From contig CP141140.1 of NCBI GenBank assembly GCA_035235625.1, forward strand, positions 7,770,685 to 7,834,684: DNA of 64,000 nucleotides, in the 5' to 3' direction. Below, piece by piece: positions 19,250-27,829 of the stretch. Source of the DNA: Saururus chinensis (Eukaryota; Streptophyta; Magnoliopsida; Piperales; Saururaceae). The number at the start of each line of letters is the position of its first letter. Positions within the stretch are counted from its first letter, which is position 1. The position numbers and the translations under genes are program-made. The notes below the pieces were generated by a model. That model searched no databases, was not told where the DNA came from, and saw only the letters and a program-made list of their open reading frames with translations.

Positions 19250-19841
19250 TGATTAACCCACTTTCCCTAAAGTGCATCTCCATATGTGGAAAACCTCTGA
19301 AATACTTTACTTTGAAATTTATAATACAAAACAATTGGTAATAAGATTGTTAATTCTTTTTAAATTATTTAACAAAATATCATTTGCTATTTACCTCCAT
19401 TCAGCGACAAGAGTAAAGGTTTAGATTTATGTTTTTACCTGCCACCACTGCCAGATAATAAAATAACGCCCACCCAGCCATCACGTAGACGTAATATTAA
19501 TTAAAATAACAAATTCCGTCCACCCAAGCAATTTAACGATCTTGATTTCTTCCGTATAGCCAATGTTAGGGAGAACTTGGTGATGGTCATAGCTGACAAA
19601 CGATACTTCATTATTATTTTCAGGGTTGCCACTTAACTTTCTTTTAAAAAGCTTCTACAAAGCTTTGGCTTCATTTATATGAATTTTGGTTGCAAGAGCG
19701 TCCAAATAAATTATAAATAAAAGTAAACAAGCACGAGTGTGGAAGCCATTCACCTTCTGCAAGTTCAGAAGTGCATACATATATAAAAAATCAGAATAAG
19801 AGTAGCTAATTTTTTAGCTTACCACTCATAGAGAAAGTCAT

Positions 19842-19898
19842 GGCCATGAGGTGCCACTCTAAAAACCCTCCAGAGCATTAGCAATTGTCAAGTCGTTA
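19842..19898 (+). pseudogene. SCPL last-exon fragment, array unit 1
   Basis: The sequence from 'ggccatgaggtgcca' to 'attgtcaagtc' matches codons about 459-477 of the SCPL gene at 51907-56798, including the catalytic-histidine motif GHEVP. A stop codon (taa) replaces the tyrosine codon after GHEVPL. Nothing upstream encodes the rest of the exon. Confidence 0.75.
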
Positions 19899-20539
19899 CT
19901 TATATAAACAACCCTACATTCTTCACAAAAGCACCTCAACCATAATAGGATCAAAATAAAAAGACAAAAGCATGTGATTACCCCCCAAATAATATTAAAT
20001 GAGAAGTGAGTAATGAGGTGTACTAAAATATACTCTAACTCTTTGCACTGTTGCTTCCTCTATTAATGGTATGGTACTCTATGCGTTGTCATGCCATCCT
20101 TCAATGCAATTACTAAGAAATTTATATTGTTTATGTTCTATTAGAATGATTGAAAATACATAAGAACATATAAACAACAATTTTTTACTTAACTCCAATT
20201 TAAGTAACTTAAATCACATATTTTCTTAAAGGGCCTAAAATATTTACAATAAGATTAAACTACCTCATCTATTTATTATAACGAATATTTTCAACTTATG
20301 ACAAGATGACTCAATTCCCAACATTTAGAATGGTGTTCAAATTTTCTTTTCAATGGCATATTTATATACCCAGATAGTTGGTTAAATTTGACTAAATTTG
20401 GAAGCTTGACCTTATAAGTAACAAGAGACTCTTAGTTAAGAGTATTACGTGTAGAGATAACATAAATAGTTAAGCTTTGTGAAATTTACATAAAGAGCGT
20501 CTTCAACTTCTGGAAGATTAGATAATCGACAACATACAC

Positions 20540-20755
20540 ATTAAAAGAATGATCCAAATCATTAACCTACATCACAAATCATTAATGCAAAGATCAAAAT
20601 CATTGACCTACATCACACAACATTCTTACAAAGATTAAAATCATTAACCTACATCACACAACTTTCTTACAAAGATTAAAATCATTAACCTACATCACAC
20701 AACATTTATGTAAAGATTAGAATCATTAACCTACATCACACAATGAGTGTAAAAC
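20540..20755 (+). repeat. Minisatellite of array unit 1
   Basis: A unit of about 48-50 bp with the core 'aatcattaacctacatcacac' followed by 'aacattcttacaaagatt' is repeated four to five times. It occupies the same place in each unit of the larger array. Confidence 0.85.
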
Positions 20756-21862
20756 ATAAACCTTATTGTCATAATAATATAAAATTAATGGACATATATT
20801 ATGTATAATGGTCTTGTCATACTAAAGCATTATTTGGTACCTCTATTAAGTTTGGTGATACACACAAAGAATAATTAATGCTAAAAGAATTAATATAAAA
20901 CAAGCAGTCATGACCTTCTTCGACATCCTATGCCTACTTAGAGTATGTTGTCATGGGCATAGTTCCGTCTCTATCCATCTTGAATTTTGACATAAAATAA
21001 AAGTTGTACTAAACTTTAGCCTTCATTTAGCCTCACCTATATGGACAACTACCAGCCGCATCTATAAGCATTGTTACTCACATATGCACGCTTAACTGCC
21101 TATGTGTACATGTACGACATTGTTACATAAACCTTATACAAAATTTTGGTCGTACCTAGCTCACCACTAGGTCTTACTAGAGAGAATGATCCACCCTTTC
21201 CTATCTAATAAATGAGATTTCTTCTACTTTTTAAACATGATTAACCCACTTTACCTAAAATTCTTCTCCATATTCTGAATTCCTTTTGAAGACTCCTATA
21301 CCTTTTAAAATACTTTACTTTGAAATTTAAAATAAAAAACAATTGGTGATAAGATTGTTAATTATTTTTAAATTATCTAACAAAATATCTTTTGCAATTT
21401 ACCTCCATTCAGCCACACAAGTAAAGGTTTAGATTTATGTTTTTTCCCTACAACTAAAGCTAGATAATAAAATAATGTCCGCCCACCTATAGAATCCACA
21501 GTCACGTTGCTACTATATTAATTAAACTAACGGATTCCGGCTAGCCAAGCAATTTAACAATCTTAACTTATGCCTTGGAGCCAATGTGGAGGGAAACTCG
21601 GTGTTGGTCATTGTTGATAAACGGTACTTCATAATTATTTTAAAGGTCTCAACTTAACTTTATTTTAAAAAGTTTTTACAAAGTTTTGGCTTCATTACAT
21701 TAATTGAGAAATCAAGAGTGTCTAAATAAACTATGAAAAAAAGTAAAAAAGCACGAGTGCGAAAGTAATTCTCCTCATGCTAGTTTAGAAGTGCATACAT
21801 ATATGAGAAATAAAAAAAAAGAGTAGCTTTTTTTTTAACTTTTAACTTATAGAGAAAGTAAT

Positions 21863-21925
21863 GGCCATGAGGTTCCGGTCTACAAACCCTCTAAAACATT
21901 AGCAATTGTCAAGTATTTCCTTATA
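21863..21925 (+). pseudogene. SCPL last-exon fragment, array unit 2
   Basis: This is the best kept of the four copies. It reads GHEVPVYKPSKTLAIVKYFL in one frame with no stop until just after the fragment, compared with [20 protein letters not shown] in the intact SCPL gene. Sequence on either side is non-coding and shared with the other array units. Confidence 0.85.
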
Positions 21926-22554
21926 TGAACAACTATACCTTCTTCACAAAAGCACCTCAACCATTATTATATCAAAATAAAAAGACAAAAGTATGTGACT
22001 ACCCCCAAATGATGGTAAATAGGAAATGAGTAATAAGGTGTATTAAAATATATTTTAACTCTTTACGCTATGACTTCCTCTATTATTAGGAAGGCTCTAT
22101 GTGTTGTCATGACATCTATAAATTTAATTACTAAGAAATTTATATTGTTTATGTTCTATTAGAATAAATAAAAATAAATAAAAACACATAAACATCAATT
22201 TTTTACTTAATAAGTAACATATTTTATTAAATGGCTAAAAATATTTTAAATATGATTAAACTACCTCATCTATTTATTATAAGGAATAAAGTTTATTTTC
22301 AACTGATGAAAAGAGGACTCAATTCCCAACATTTAGAATGGTGTTAATTTTTCTTTTTAGTGGCATAAAAATATATGCAAAGCTAGTTAGTTAAATCCAA
22401 CAAAATTTAGTAGCTTCACCTTGTAAGTAACAAGAGACTCTTAGTTAAGAGCATTACATGTACAGAGAATATAAATAGTTAAGTTTCGTGACATTTACAT
22501 AAAGAACCTCTAAAGCTTTTAGAATATTTAGATAATAAGTAATATACACATAAA

Positions 22555-25454: not shown

Positions 25455-25600
25455 TATAACAAATTTAGATCGGGCCAACGTTATTGTGTCGTTAGTTGCC
25501 TATGTACGTATTAGATAACATCTATGATGTTATTTAAATACGATCGAATTTAAACGTAGTTCTGCCTAACAGTTTATACATACATAAGGGAGTAGAAAAT
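25455..25600 (-). mobile_element. Conserved LTR-element module, minus orientation
   Basis: On the minus strand this reads 'ggcagaactacgttta', 'tcgatcgtatttaaataaca', 'agatgttatctaatacgtac' and 'ggcaactaacgacac'. The same order of motifs is present at 49600-49725 and 63515-63645 on the plus strand. It interrupts the repeat array between units 3 and 4, and the head of unit 4 is missing next to it. Confidence 0.65.
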
Positions 25601-25881
25601 CATACAAATCATAATATTTATAATATGTAATTTTTCTTAACAATTAATATTCATGATTATTTCAGGGCTGCCACAACTTTTATTTAAAAAAAAATTTGAC
25701 AAAGTTTCGACTTCATTTAAAAGAATTGAGGCAACAATCGAGTCTAAATAAACTATGAACAAAAGTAAACAAGCACGAGTGTGAAAGCTATTCTCCTTCT
25801 ACAAGTTTGGAAGTGCATACATATATGAAAAATAGGAATAAAAATAGTTTATTTTAGCTTACTACTTATAAAGAAAGTAAT

Positions 25882-25945
25882 GGCTATTAGTTTCTATTTT
25901 ACAAACCCTCTAAAGCATTGGCAATTGTGAAGTCTTTCCTTATAT
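25882..25945 (+). pseudogene. SCPL last-exon fragment, array unit 4
   Basis: The part 'tacaaaccctctaaagcatt' then 'ggcaattgtgaagtctttcc' matches the other copies; the GHEVP codons are degraded ('ggctattagtttctatttt'). Non-coding. Confidence 0.65.
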
Positions 25946-26579
25946 TAACGATAATACCTTCTTCACAAAAGCACCTTAACTATAATATAATCAAAATGAA
26001 AAAACAACATCATGTGACTACTCGTAAATAGTGTTAAATGAGAAATAAGTAATTAAGTTTAATTAAATGAACTCTAACTCTTTCCACCATGACTTCCTCT
26101 ATTAATAGTAAGGTACTCTATACGTTATCATGCCATATATCAATGCGATTATTTCAAAATATTTTTTTATATGTTCTATTATAATTATTAAAAATAAATA
26201 AGAACACATAAACTTAAATATTTTTACATAAGTATAATTTAAGTAACTTAAGTTGCATATTTTCTTAAAGGGCCTAAAATATTTTAAATAAAATTAAACT
26301 ACCTTATCATTTATTACAAAGAATAAGGTTGATTTTCAACTAATGAAATAAGGACCCAATTCCCAACATTTAGAATAGTGTAAAAAATTTCTTTTAAATG
26401 GCATATATATGCTCTGTAAGTCGGTTGAATCTAACAAAATTTGCTAGCTTTACCTTTTAAGTAATAAGTGACTCTTAGTGAAAAGCATTACATGTAGAGA
26501 GAACATGAATAGTTAAGCTAGGTGACAATTTCATAAAGAACCTCTTAAGCTTTAATAATCGGGAAGATAAACATTTATA

Positions 26580-26745
26580 TAAAAATCAAAACCATTGACC
26601 TACATCATAAGACATTAATGTAAGATCAAATTTGTTAACCTAAATCACACAACATTTATGCAAAGATTAAAATCATTAACCTACATCACACAACATTCAT
26701 GTATAACATAAAATCATTGTCCTACATTACATAATGAGTGTGAAA
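26580..26745 (+). repeat. Minisatellite of array unit 4
   Basis: Three to four copies of the 'aatcattaacctacatcac' unit, more diverged than in unit 2. Confidence 0.7.
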
Positions 26746-27829
26746 CATTAACCTTATTGTTATAATGGTATAAAATTAACGAACATATATTGTGTATAAT
26801 GGTTTCATCATTCCAAAGTATTATTAGGTACATCCGTTAGGTGCGGTGATAGAAACAAAGAAGTATTAATATTAAAAGAATTAATAGGAAAAAATAGTAA
26901 TAACCTTCTTCGACATCATATACATACTTAGAGTATGTTATCATGCACATACTTAGTATAGGGGTCTATGTGTATAACCATAATTAACCCACTTTCCCTA
27001 AAGTGTTTTTCCATACGTGGAACACCTTTGGAAGACTACTAGTCCTTTTAAAACACTTTACTTTAAAATTTATAATGTAAAATAATTAGTAATAAGATTG
27101 TTAATTCTTTTATCATTTAACAAAATACAATGTGTTATTTACCTCTATTCAGTCACAACAGTAAAGGCTTAGATTTATGTTTTTTCCCTATGACCATAGC
27201 TAAATAATAAAATAATACTCGCATAGATATAAAATCCACAATGCTTCTCCATATACTGAATTCCTTTTGAAGACTTCTATACCTTTTAAAATATTTTACT
27301 TTGAAATTTAAAATAAAAAACAATTGGTGATAAGATTGTTAATTATTTTAAAATGATCTAAAAAAATATCTTTTGCAATTTACCTCCATTCAGCCACACA
27401 AGTAAAGGTTTAGATTTATGTTTTTTCCCTACAACTAAAGCTAGATAATAAAATAATGCCCGCCTAGCTATAGAATCCACAGTCACGTTGCTACTATATT
27501 AATTAAACTGACGGATTCTGGCTACCCGAGCAATTTAACGATCTTGACTTATGCCTTGGAGCCAATGTGGAGGGGAACTCGGTGTTGGTCATTGGTACTT
27601 CATAATTATTTTAAAGGCTTCCACTTCACTTTATTTTAAAAAGTTTTCACAAAGTTTCGGCTTCATTTACATGAATTGAGAAAGCAAGAGTGTCCAAATA
27701 AACTATGAACAAAAGTAAACAAGCACGAGTGCGAAAGTAATTCTCCTTATGCTAGTTTAGAAATGTATACATATATGAGAAATAAAAAAAAGAGTAGCTT
27801 TTTTTAACTTTCCACTTAAGGGGGACCAG

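Follow-up and report, generated by a model that had tools for sequence, protein, structure and literature searches.

A probable tandem array of decayed serine carboxypeptidase-like genes with an inverted last exon in Saururus chinensis

Introduction

Arrays of duplicated (unprocessed) pseudogenes are known in tandem gene families. Here we describe a locus that very probably belongs among them: a tandem array of decayed serine carboxypeptidase-like (SCPL) genes, read in gene direction on the minus strand, in a 64,000-bp window of the Saururus chinensis genome (bases 7,770,685-7,834,684 of contig C1; genome 516 Mb, 11 contigs). Like the known arrays it is local, keeps introns, carries several lesions, has an intact relative nearby and has undergone exchange between copies. 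Unlike the usual case, its copies agree in having the last exon inverted and exons missing, so that the amplified unit was probably already broken, and one intron/exon border has turned into a minisatellite. The array is therefore ordinary in kind, a duplicated-pseudogene array, and its unusual part is the inverted exon.

A second point of comparison is the soybean I locus, where inverted chalcone synthase (CHS) repeats are reported to give small interfering RNAs, or siRNAs (PMC3804491, PMC6710647); inverted pseudoCHS repeats are the subject of a third report (PMC13051633). Both loci hold rearranged extra gene copies near functional relatives, with copy number shifted by non-allelic recombination. 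They differ in that siRNAs were measured in soybean, and in that the pieces of the present array are 58-88% identical to the intact gene as DNA, with no exact 21-mer to the coding sequence. A table of genes flanked by repeats in PMC2869330 includes 12 SCPL genes from Arabidopsis, and the sea urchin immune gene family, whose repeats are described in PMC5103432 as ranging from short tandem repeats to segmental duplications, is the nearest in kind among the matches listed. For tandem pseudogene arrays, gene-derived tandem repeats and intron/exon-border minisatellites, no title or abstract start among the matches listed describes this case.

Results and Discussion

Array units follow the order of an SCPL gene

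Comparison of the window with itself and an alignment of four copies, c1 to c4, set the limits of the array and of its copies, and bore out the tandem array claimed in the original prediction, with successive exon-8 pieces 2021, 2433 and 1586 bp apart. The features below are given in window coordinates; L025 is the genome region with the left pseudogene described later (L019-L022, L026 and L056-L058 were likewise fetched for comparison).

19239-27818, gene direction minus: whole array, tandem decayed SCPL gene copies (self-comparison, tblastn, alignments)
19324-19815, minus: leftmost truncated copy, only exon 1, 5' flank and intron-1 start (75% to the left pseudogene, L025; protein signal reached by 22/300 shuffles)
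20028-20114, minus: c1 exon 6 (62% at the amino acid level, 0/300 shuffles)
20446-20576, minus: c1 exon 5 (75% nucleotide identity to 53353-53484; tblastn match 20566-20466)
20820-20921, minus: c1 exon 4 end (tblastn, shuffle test)
21332-21856, minus: c1 exon 1, 5' flank and intron-1 start (73% to L025; exon-1 amino acids 80-119 at 21517-21404, 0/300 shuffles)
22057-22347, minus: c2 exon 6 and intron 5 end (66% to 55840-56150, relaxed scoring; exon 6 undetected as protein)
22448-22549, minus: c2 exon 5 (tblastn, shuffle test)
22953-23027, minus: c2 exon 4 end (tblastn, shuffle test)
23069-23288, no strand: insert in c2 (also on contig C2 of the genome, 88%)
23787-24272, minus: c2 exon 1, 5' flank and intron-1 start (69% to L025; shuffle test)
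24482-24565, minus: c3 exon 6 (DNA alignment, tblastn, shuffle test)
24937-25035, minus: c3 exon 5 (tblastn, shuffle test)
25244-25342, minus: c3 exon 4 end (tblastn, shuffle test)
25650-25872, minus: c3 exon 1, 5' half only (77-78% to L025)
26064-26135, minus: c4 exon 6 (tblastn, shuffle test)
26428-26552, minus: c4 exon 5, very decayed (71% nucleotide identity; nearest protein match, 26599-26543, reached by 63/300 shuffles)
26817-26888, minus: c4 exon 4 end (tblastn, shuffle test)
26968-27240, minus: c4 older exon-1 end and intron 1 (self-comparison, shuffle test, L025 comparison)
27242-27818, minus: partial unit of exon 1 and 5' flank, later exchange product (92-93% like the exon-1 region of c1)

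The yardstick for these assignments was an intact relative in the same window.

51907-56798, plus: intact SCPL gene, 8 exons, 486 amino acids

Its exon borders were placed manually from motifs and reading frame; all its introns are GT-AG, its frame is open for 486 codons, and its protein is a full Peptidase_S10 match (E=2.5e-137, Pfam PF00450). Exon 3 lies in an open stretch that is similar to serine carboxypeptidase II chains of solved structure (E=4e-35), which we take to be wheat proteins. The intact neighbor is thus a full member of the SCPL genes (PF00450), and the array copies derive from such a gene but are noncoding.

Searching with the intact protein by tblastn, we found exon 1 (best E=1e-6), the exon 4 end (2e-5), exon 6 (7e-6) and exon 5 on the minus strand of the unit, and exon 8 (E=2e-4) on the plus strand. 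As a control, protein scores were compared exon by exon with those from 300 dinucleotide-preserving shuffles of the array, considering the best six hits per exon. The best scores of exons 1, 4, 5, 6 and 8 were reached by none of the 300 shuffles, a standard passed by four matches each for exons 1, 4 and 8 and by three each for exons 5 and 6. Sequence at the end of exon 1 is still readable in c1 (for example YSSNVTVDSIGGRTLFYYLALVVGKKHKSKPLLVWLNGG at 21517-21401), and the decayed exon 6 of c2 and exon 5 of c4 were added by DNA alignment.

Read on the minus strand, these pieces follow gene order, from exon 1 through the exon 4 end and exon 5 to exon 6, introns 4 and 5 being retained. A majority consensus built from c1 to c4 is colinear with the gene (consensus positions 927-1512 with window 53180-53592, and 1502-1844 with 55840-56179); the alignment starts from the exon 4 end and continues across intron 4, exon 5 and intron 5 into exon 6, with a best E of 2e-46 under relaxed scoring. 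Because introns 4 and 5 align with those of the gene, the unit is a genomic copy and not a retrocopy. In the intact gene, intron 5 exceeds that of the consensus by 2.25 kb (53592-55840), which suggests insertions into the intact gene.

Exons 2, 3 and 7 were sought in the array and went undetected, their best scores being reached by 210, 23 and 46 of the 300 shuffles, as did the front of exon 4 in the units when searched with the intact SCPL protein. Stops and frameshifts interrupt the exon matches, and copies with these sequences cannot code for protein. Several parent exons (1, 4 end, 5, 6 and 8), introns kept in colinear order with the inverted exon 8 as the exception, and a disabled frame together fit a duplicated pseudogene.

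The original prediction had taken the array for a repeat of unknown class carrying one captured SCPL exon piece; it missed the minus-strand SCPL gene that makes up much of the unit. In that scenario a transposable element such as a Helitron or Pack-MULE captured the exon-8 piece and multiplied with it, and the orientation of exon 8, opposite to the rest as in a chimeric capture, would agree with it, as would the remnant nearby that resembles a miniature inverted-repeat transposable element (MITE). Such an element should have a backbone that is not a gene and dispersed copies that share ends. Instead, the exon 1 region and the stretch from the exon 4 end to exon 6 are SCPL gene, and the colinear match with introns in order contradicts capture. 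Genome searches, in which the best candidates were scored and very common words skipped, so that negatives hold at that sensitivity, found no dispersed copies of the unit with array pieces of 501 and 1993 bp. The 501-bp piece matched five places in the 516-Mb genome, all within the array. Of 17 places matched by the 1993-bp piece, eight belong to the array (self included); the left pseudogene accounts for two and the intact gene for three, and the other four are 43-47-bp matches to the dispersed repeat. We regard an element of this sort as extremely improbable, and prefer decayed gene copies. An array that could pass for an unclassified element bearing a captured exon can thus be a graveyard of genes whose coding strand is the other one. 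A search with the c2 spacer gave, besides the copy of the insert on contig C2, short matches elsewhere.

The last exon is inverted in all four copies

The pieces that first drew attention to the locus lie around the catalytic histidine (GHEVP) within exon 8, which occupies 56652-56798 in the intact gene.

19842-19930, plus: c1 exon-8 piece, inverted with respect to the other parts of c1 (56 bp, 88% identical to 56712-56767; 0/300 shuffles)
21863-21951, plus: c2 exon-8 piece, inverted, 20 residues open (DNA alignment, tblastn, shuffle test)
24296-24355, plus: c3 exon-8 piece, inverted (DNA alignment, shuffle test)
25882-25941, plus: c4 exon-8 piece, inverted (DNA alignment, shuffle test)
19979-20025, no strand: small dispersed repeat remnant, MITE-like by its inverted ends elsewhere (87-93% to contigs C11, C4 at two places, and C3; aligned in 4/4 copies)

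All four pieces, each about 60 bp (19842-19897, 21863-21922, 24296-24355 and 25882-25941, plus strand), proved real: they are 73-88% identical to window 56712-56771, the protein score of each is reached by 0/300 shuffles, and relaxed scoring extends the matches to 89-113 bp. As predicted, the piece at 21863 is open for 20 residues and reads GHEVPVYKPSKTLAIVKYFL without a stop. In every one of the four copies exon 8 lies on the strand opposite exons 1, 4, 5 and 6. The proposal of a single capture followed by amplification survives in part: the presence of the piece in the unit before multiplication is supported, as the four copies share both piece and orientation, and it is the capture that falls away.

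We considered whether exon 8 is joined to a piece of exon 6 in sense, and dropped the idea, since the match occurs in c1 only and its protein score was reached by 126 of 300 shuffles. The small dispersed repeat on C11, C4 and C3 (L019-L022) has inverted ends like AATAAAGACTCAGTAC, and the array holds only its inner part.

An inverted exon beside an intact relative raises the question of silencing. The array could act as a pseudogene silencing locus, whose RNA, if made in the array's own gene direction, would have exons 1, 4, 5 and 6 in sense and exon 8 in antisense, giving small RNAs against the last exon of the intact gene; this would be compatible with an array of decayed genes and would add a function to it. 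Exon 8 is the part of c1 closest to the intact gene (88% over 56 bp), it is inverted in 4/4 copies, and the closest 21-mer to the coding sequence (exon 8, c4) has one mismatch, compared with three in a reversed-array control. Against it, the array and the intact coding sequence have no exact 21-, 22- or 24-mers in common; the longest exact match is 15 nucleotides to the coding sequence and 20 nucleotides to the whole gene region, the latter in intron 5. Nor was the target sequence found as an inverted repeat, as expected of a locus like soybean I: among the best six matches per exon, significant ones were on the plus strand for exon 8 and on the minus strand for exons 1, 4, 5 and 6, with none significant in both orientations, so that no hairpin is seen. 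The small RNAs that the original prediction thought possible would thus have no exact match to the SCPL coding sequence, and could target it only with mismatches. We consider a silencing locus very unlikely, and give equally little credence to the idea that the broken, then multiplied gene was kept because its flipped exon 8 gives antisense RNA that tunes the intact neighbor. Most likely the array makes no protein and has no selected function.

Order of breakage and multiplication

Copies c1 to c4 are 73-81% alike in pairs over 1541-1980 aligned columns, with Kimura two-parameter distances of 0.226-0.339, and because of these distances the array is not a recent assembly artifact. Under a substitution rate that we assume, the distances would presumably translate into tens of millions of years, though we put forward no absolute age. 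The partial unit at 27242-27818 and the exon-1 region of c1 are 92-93% alike, compared with 75-83% for the remaining parts of c1 and c4, and stops just short of the position of an exon-8 piece; we read it as the product of one later exchange between copies. Its right edge at 27818 was also considered as an original unit edge, a reading weakened by the alignment, which puts that edge some 10-20 bp from the exon-8 join; it may be the place where a following element cut the array.

The inversion, the exon losses and the repeat remnant recur in all four copies, so breakage of the gene probably came before its multiplication. We propose that an SCPL gene, akin to both the intact neighbor and the left pseudogene, was stripped of exons 2 and 3, the front of exon 4 (exon 4a) and exon 7, had its last exon inverted and took in the small repeat remnant, and that the broken unit would then have been multiplied in tandem by unequal exchange, of which the one later exchange is visible. 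If this order is true, amplification occurred without a protein to select for.

Several observations weigh against this reconstruction. Exon 5 of c4, exon 6 of c2 and the leftmost exon 1 are not significant as protein and come from DNA alignment only. Exon 1 is weakly similar to the intact gene as DNA (58-59%, E=8e-5 to 0.002 singly; consensus exon 1 against the exon 1 of the intact gene, E=5e-6), and in c1 and c2 the exon 4 end is separated from exon 1 by about 300-600 bp with no detected SCPL match. A 29-bp sense match to exon 6 at 19815-19843 (E=0.001) hints at a more complex join beside exon 8. Shared lesions could also spread by later homogenization between copies.

That last point underlies the opposite order, in which complete genes were multiplied first and decayed later, exchange having carried the shared lesions from copy to copy. 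In its favor, copies retain exon 1 and the 5' flank, and exchange did happen at 27242-27818. This order would have to account for the undetected exons 2-4a and 7 and the exon 8 inversion being common to copies, and the left pseudogene still has exons 2, 3 and 4a. We consider it unlikely, and favor breakage before multiplication.

A minisatellite at the intron-4/exon-5 border

Tandem Repeats Finder (TRF) calls a minisatellite in each of c1 to c4, with a period of 41 bp and about 2 to 8 units.

20556-20743, minus: c1 41-bp minisatellite (TRF; 88% to 53352-53385)
22548-22874, minus: c2 41-bp minisatellite, 8 copies (TRF)
25041-25162, minus: c3 minisatellite, about 2-3 units (TRF, two overlapping rows merged)
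26570-26731, minus: c4 41-bp minisatellite, 4 copies (TRF)

Its reverse complement matches the intron 4 end and first exon 5 codons of the intact gene (88% over 34 bp, E=3e-6, in c1), and the repeat is evidently the multiplied intron-4 end and exon-5 start. Slippage within each unit would have multiplied this border. Two GGTGTG copies 36 bp apart flank it in the intact gene, and our guess is that the slippage arose at this repeat, which at six bases may be chance.

Relatives of the array in the genome

Some 11-13 kb outside the window on its left side, near C1:7757.9-7759.9 kb, another SCPL pseudogene is found on the minus strand; it keeps exons 1, 2, 3 and the first part of exon 4. The exon-1 part of the unit and its 5' flank are 69-80% like it. 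Because the left pseudogene lacks an exon-1 stretch that is present in the array, we read the array as its sister, not its copy. At C1:7754801-7762715 (L025, L026) the left pseudogene breaks off within exon 4. After it comes a second copy, in inverted orientation, of the front of its exon 1 and the DNA upstream; the arms, about 3 kb in two aligned pieces, are 92-93% identical.

Of the other SCPL loci listed in the genome, three (L056, L057 and L058) were tried as the source of the array and set aside; exon 1 of L058 matches the unit consensus at 70% of DNA positions, and all other consensus DNA matches are to the local gene and the left pseudogene. Apart from self-matches, a genome query with exons 6-8 of the intact gene hit exon 8 of c1 and 41 bp on C9.

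Other features of the window

At 10881-13285 there is a second locus-specific tandem repeat, with a 235-bp period at 12289-12898. It has four plus-strand stretches like the SCPL exon-5 tail (LHVNVTKLDYPW...), three of them listed with scores of 66, 66 and 54 against a maximum of 49 in 500 shuffles; the fourth is at 12511-12564 (E=0.005). One gene family feeds repeats at three scales in the window: about 2 kb (gene copies), 235 bp (this second repeat) and 41 bp (the intron/exon border). A large palindrome of about 3 kb, 89% identical to its own reverse complement, occupies 37342-40385. Long GA/CT-rich low-complexity tracts run through 13800-18700, and amid them, at 18301-18416, is a 42-bp repeat with the palindrome GCGACGCATAGATCTATGCGTCGC.

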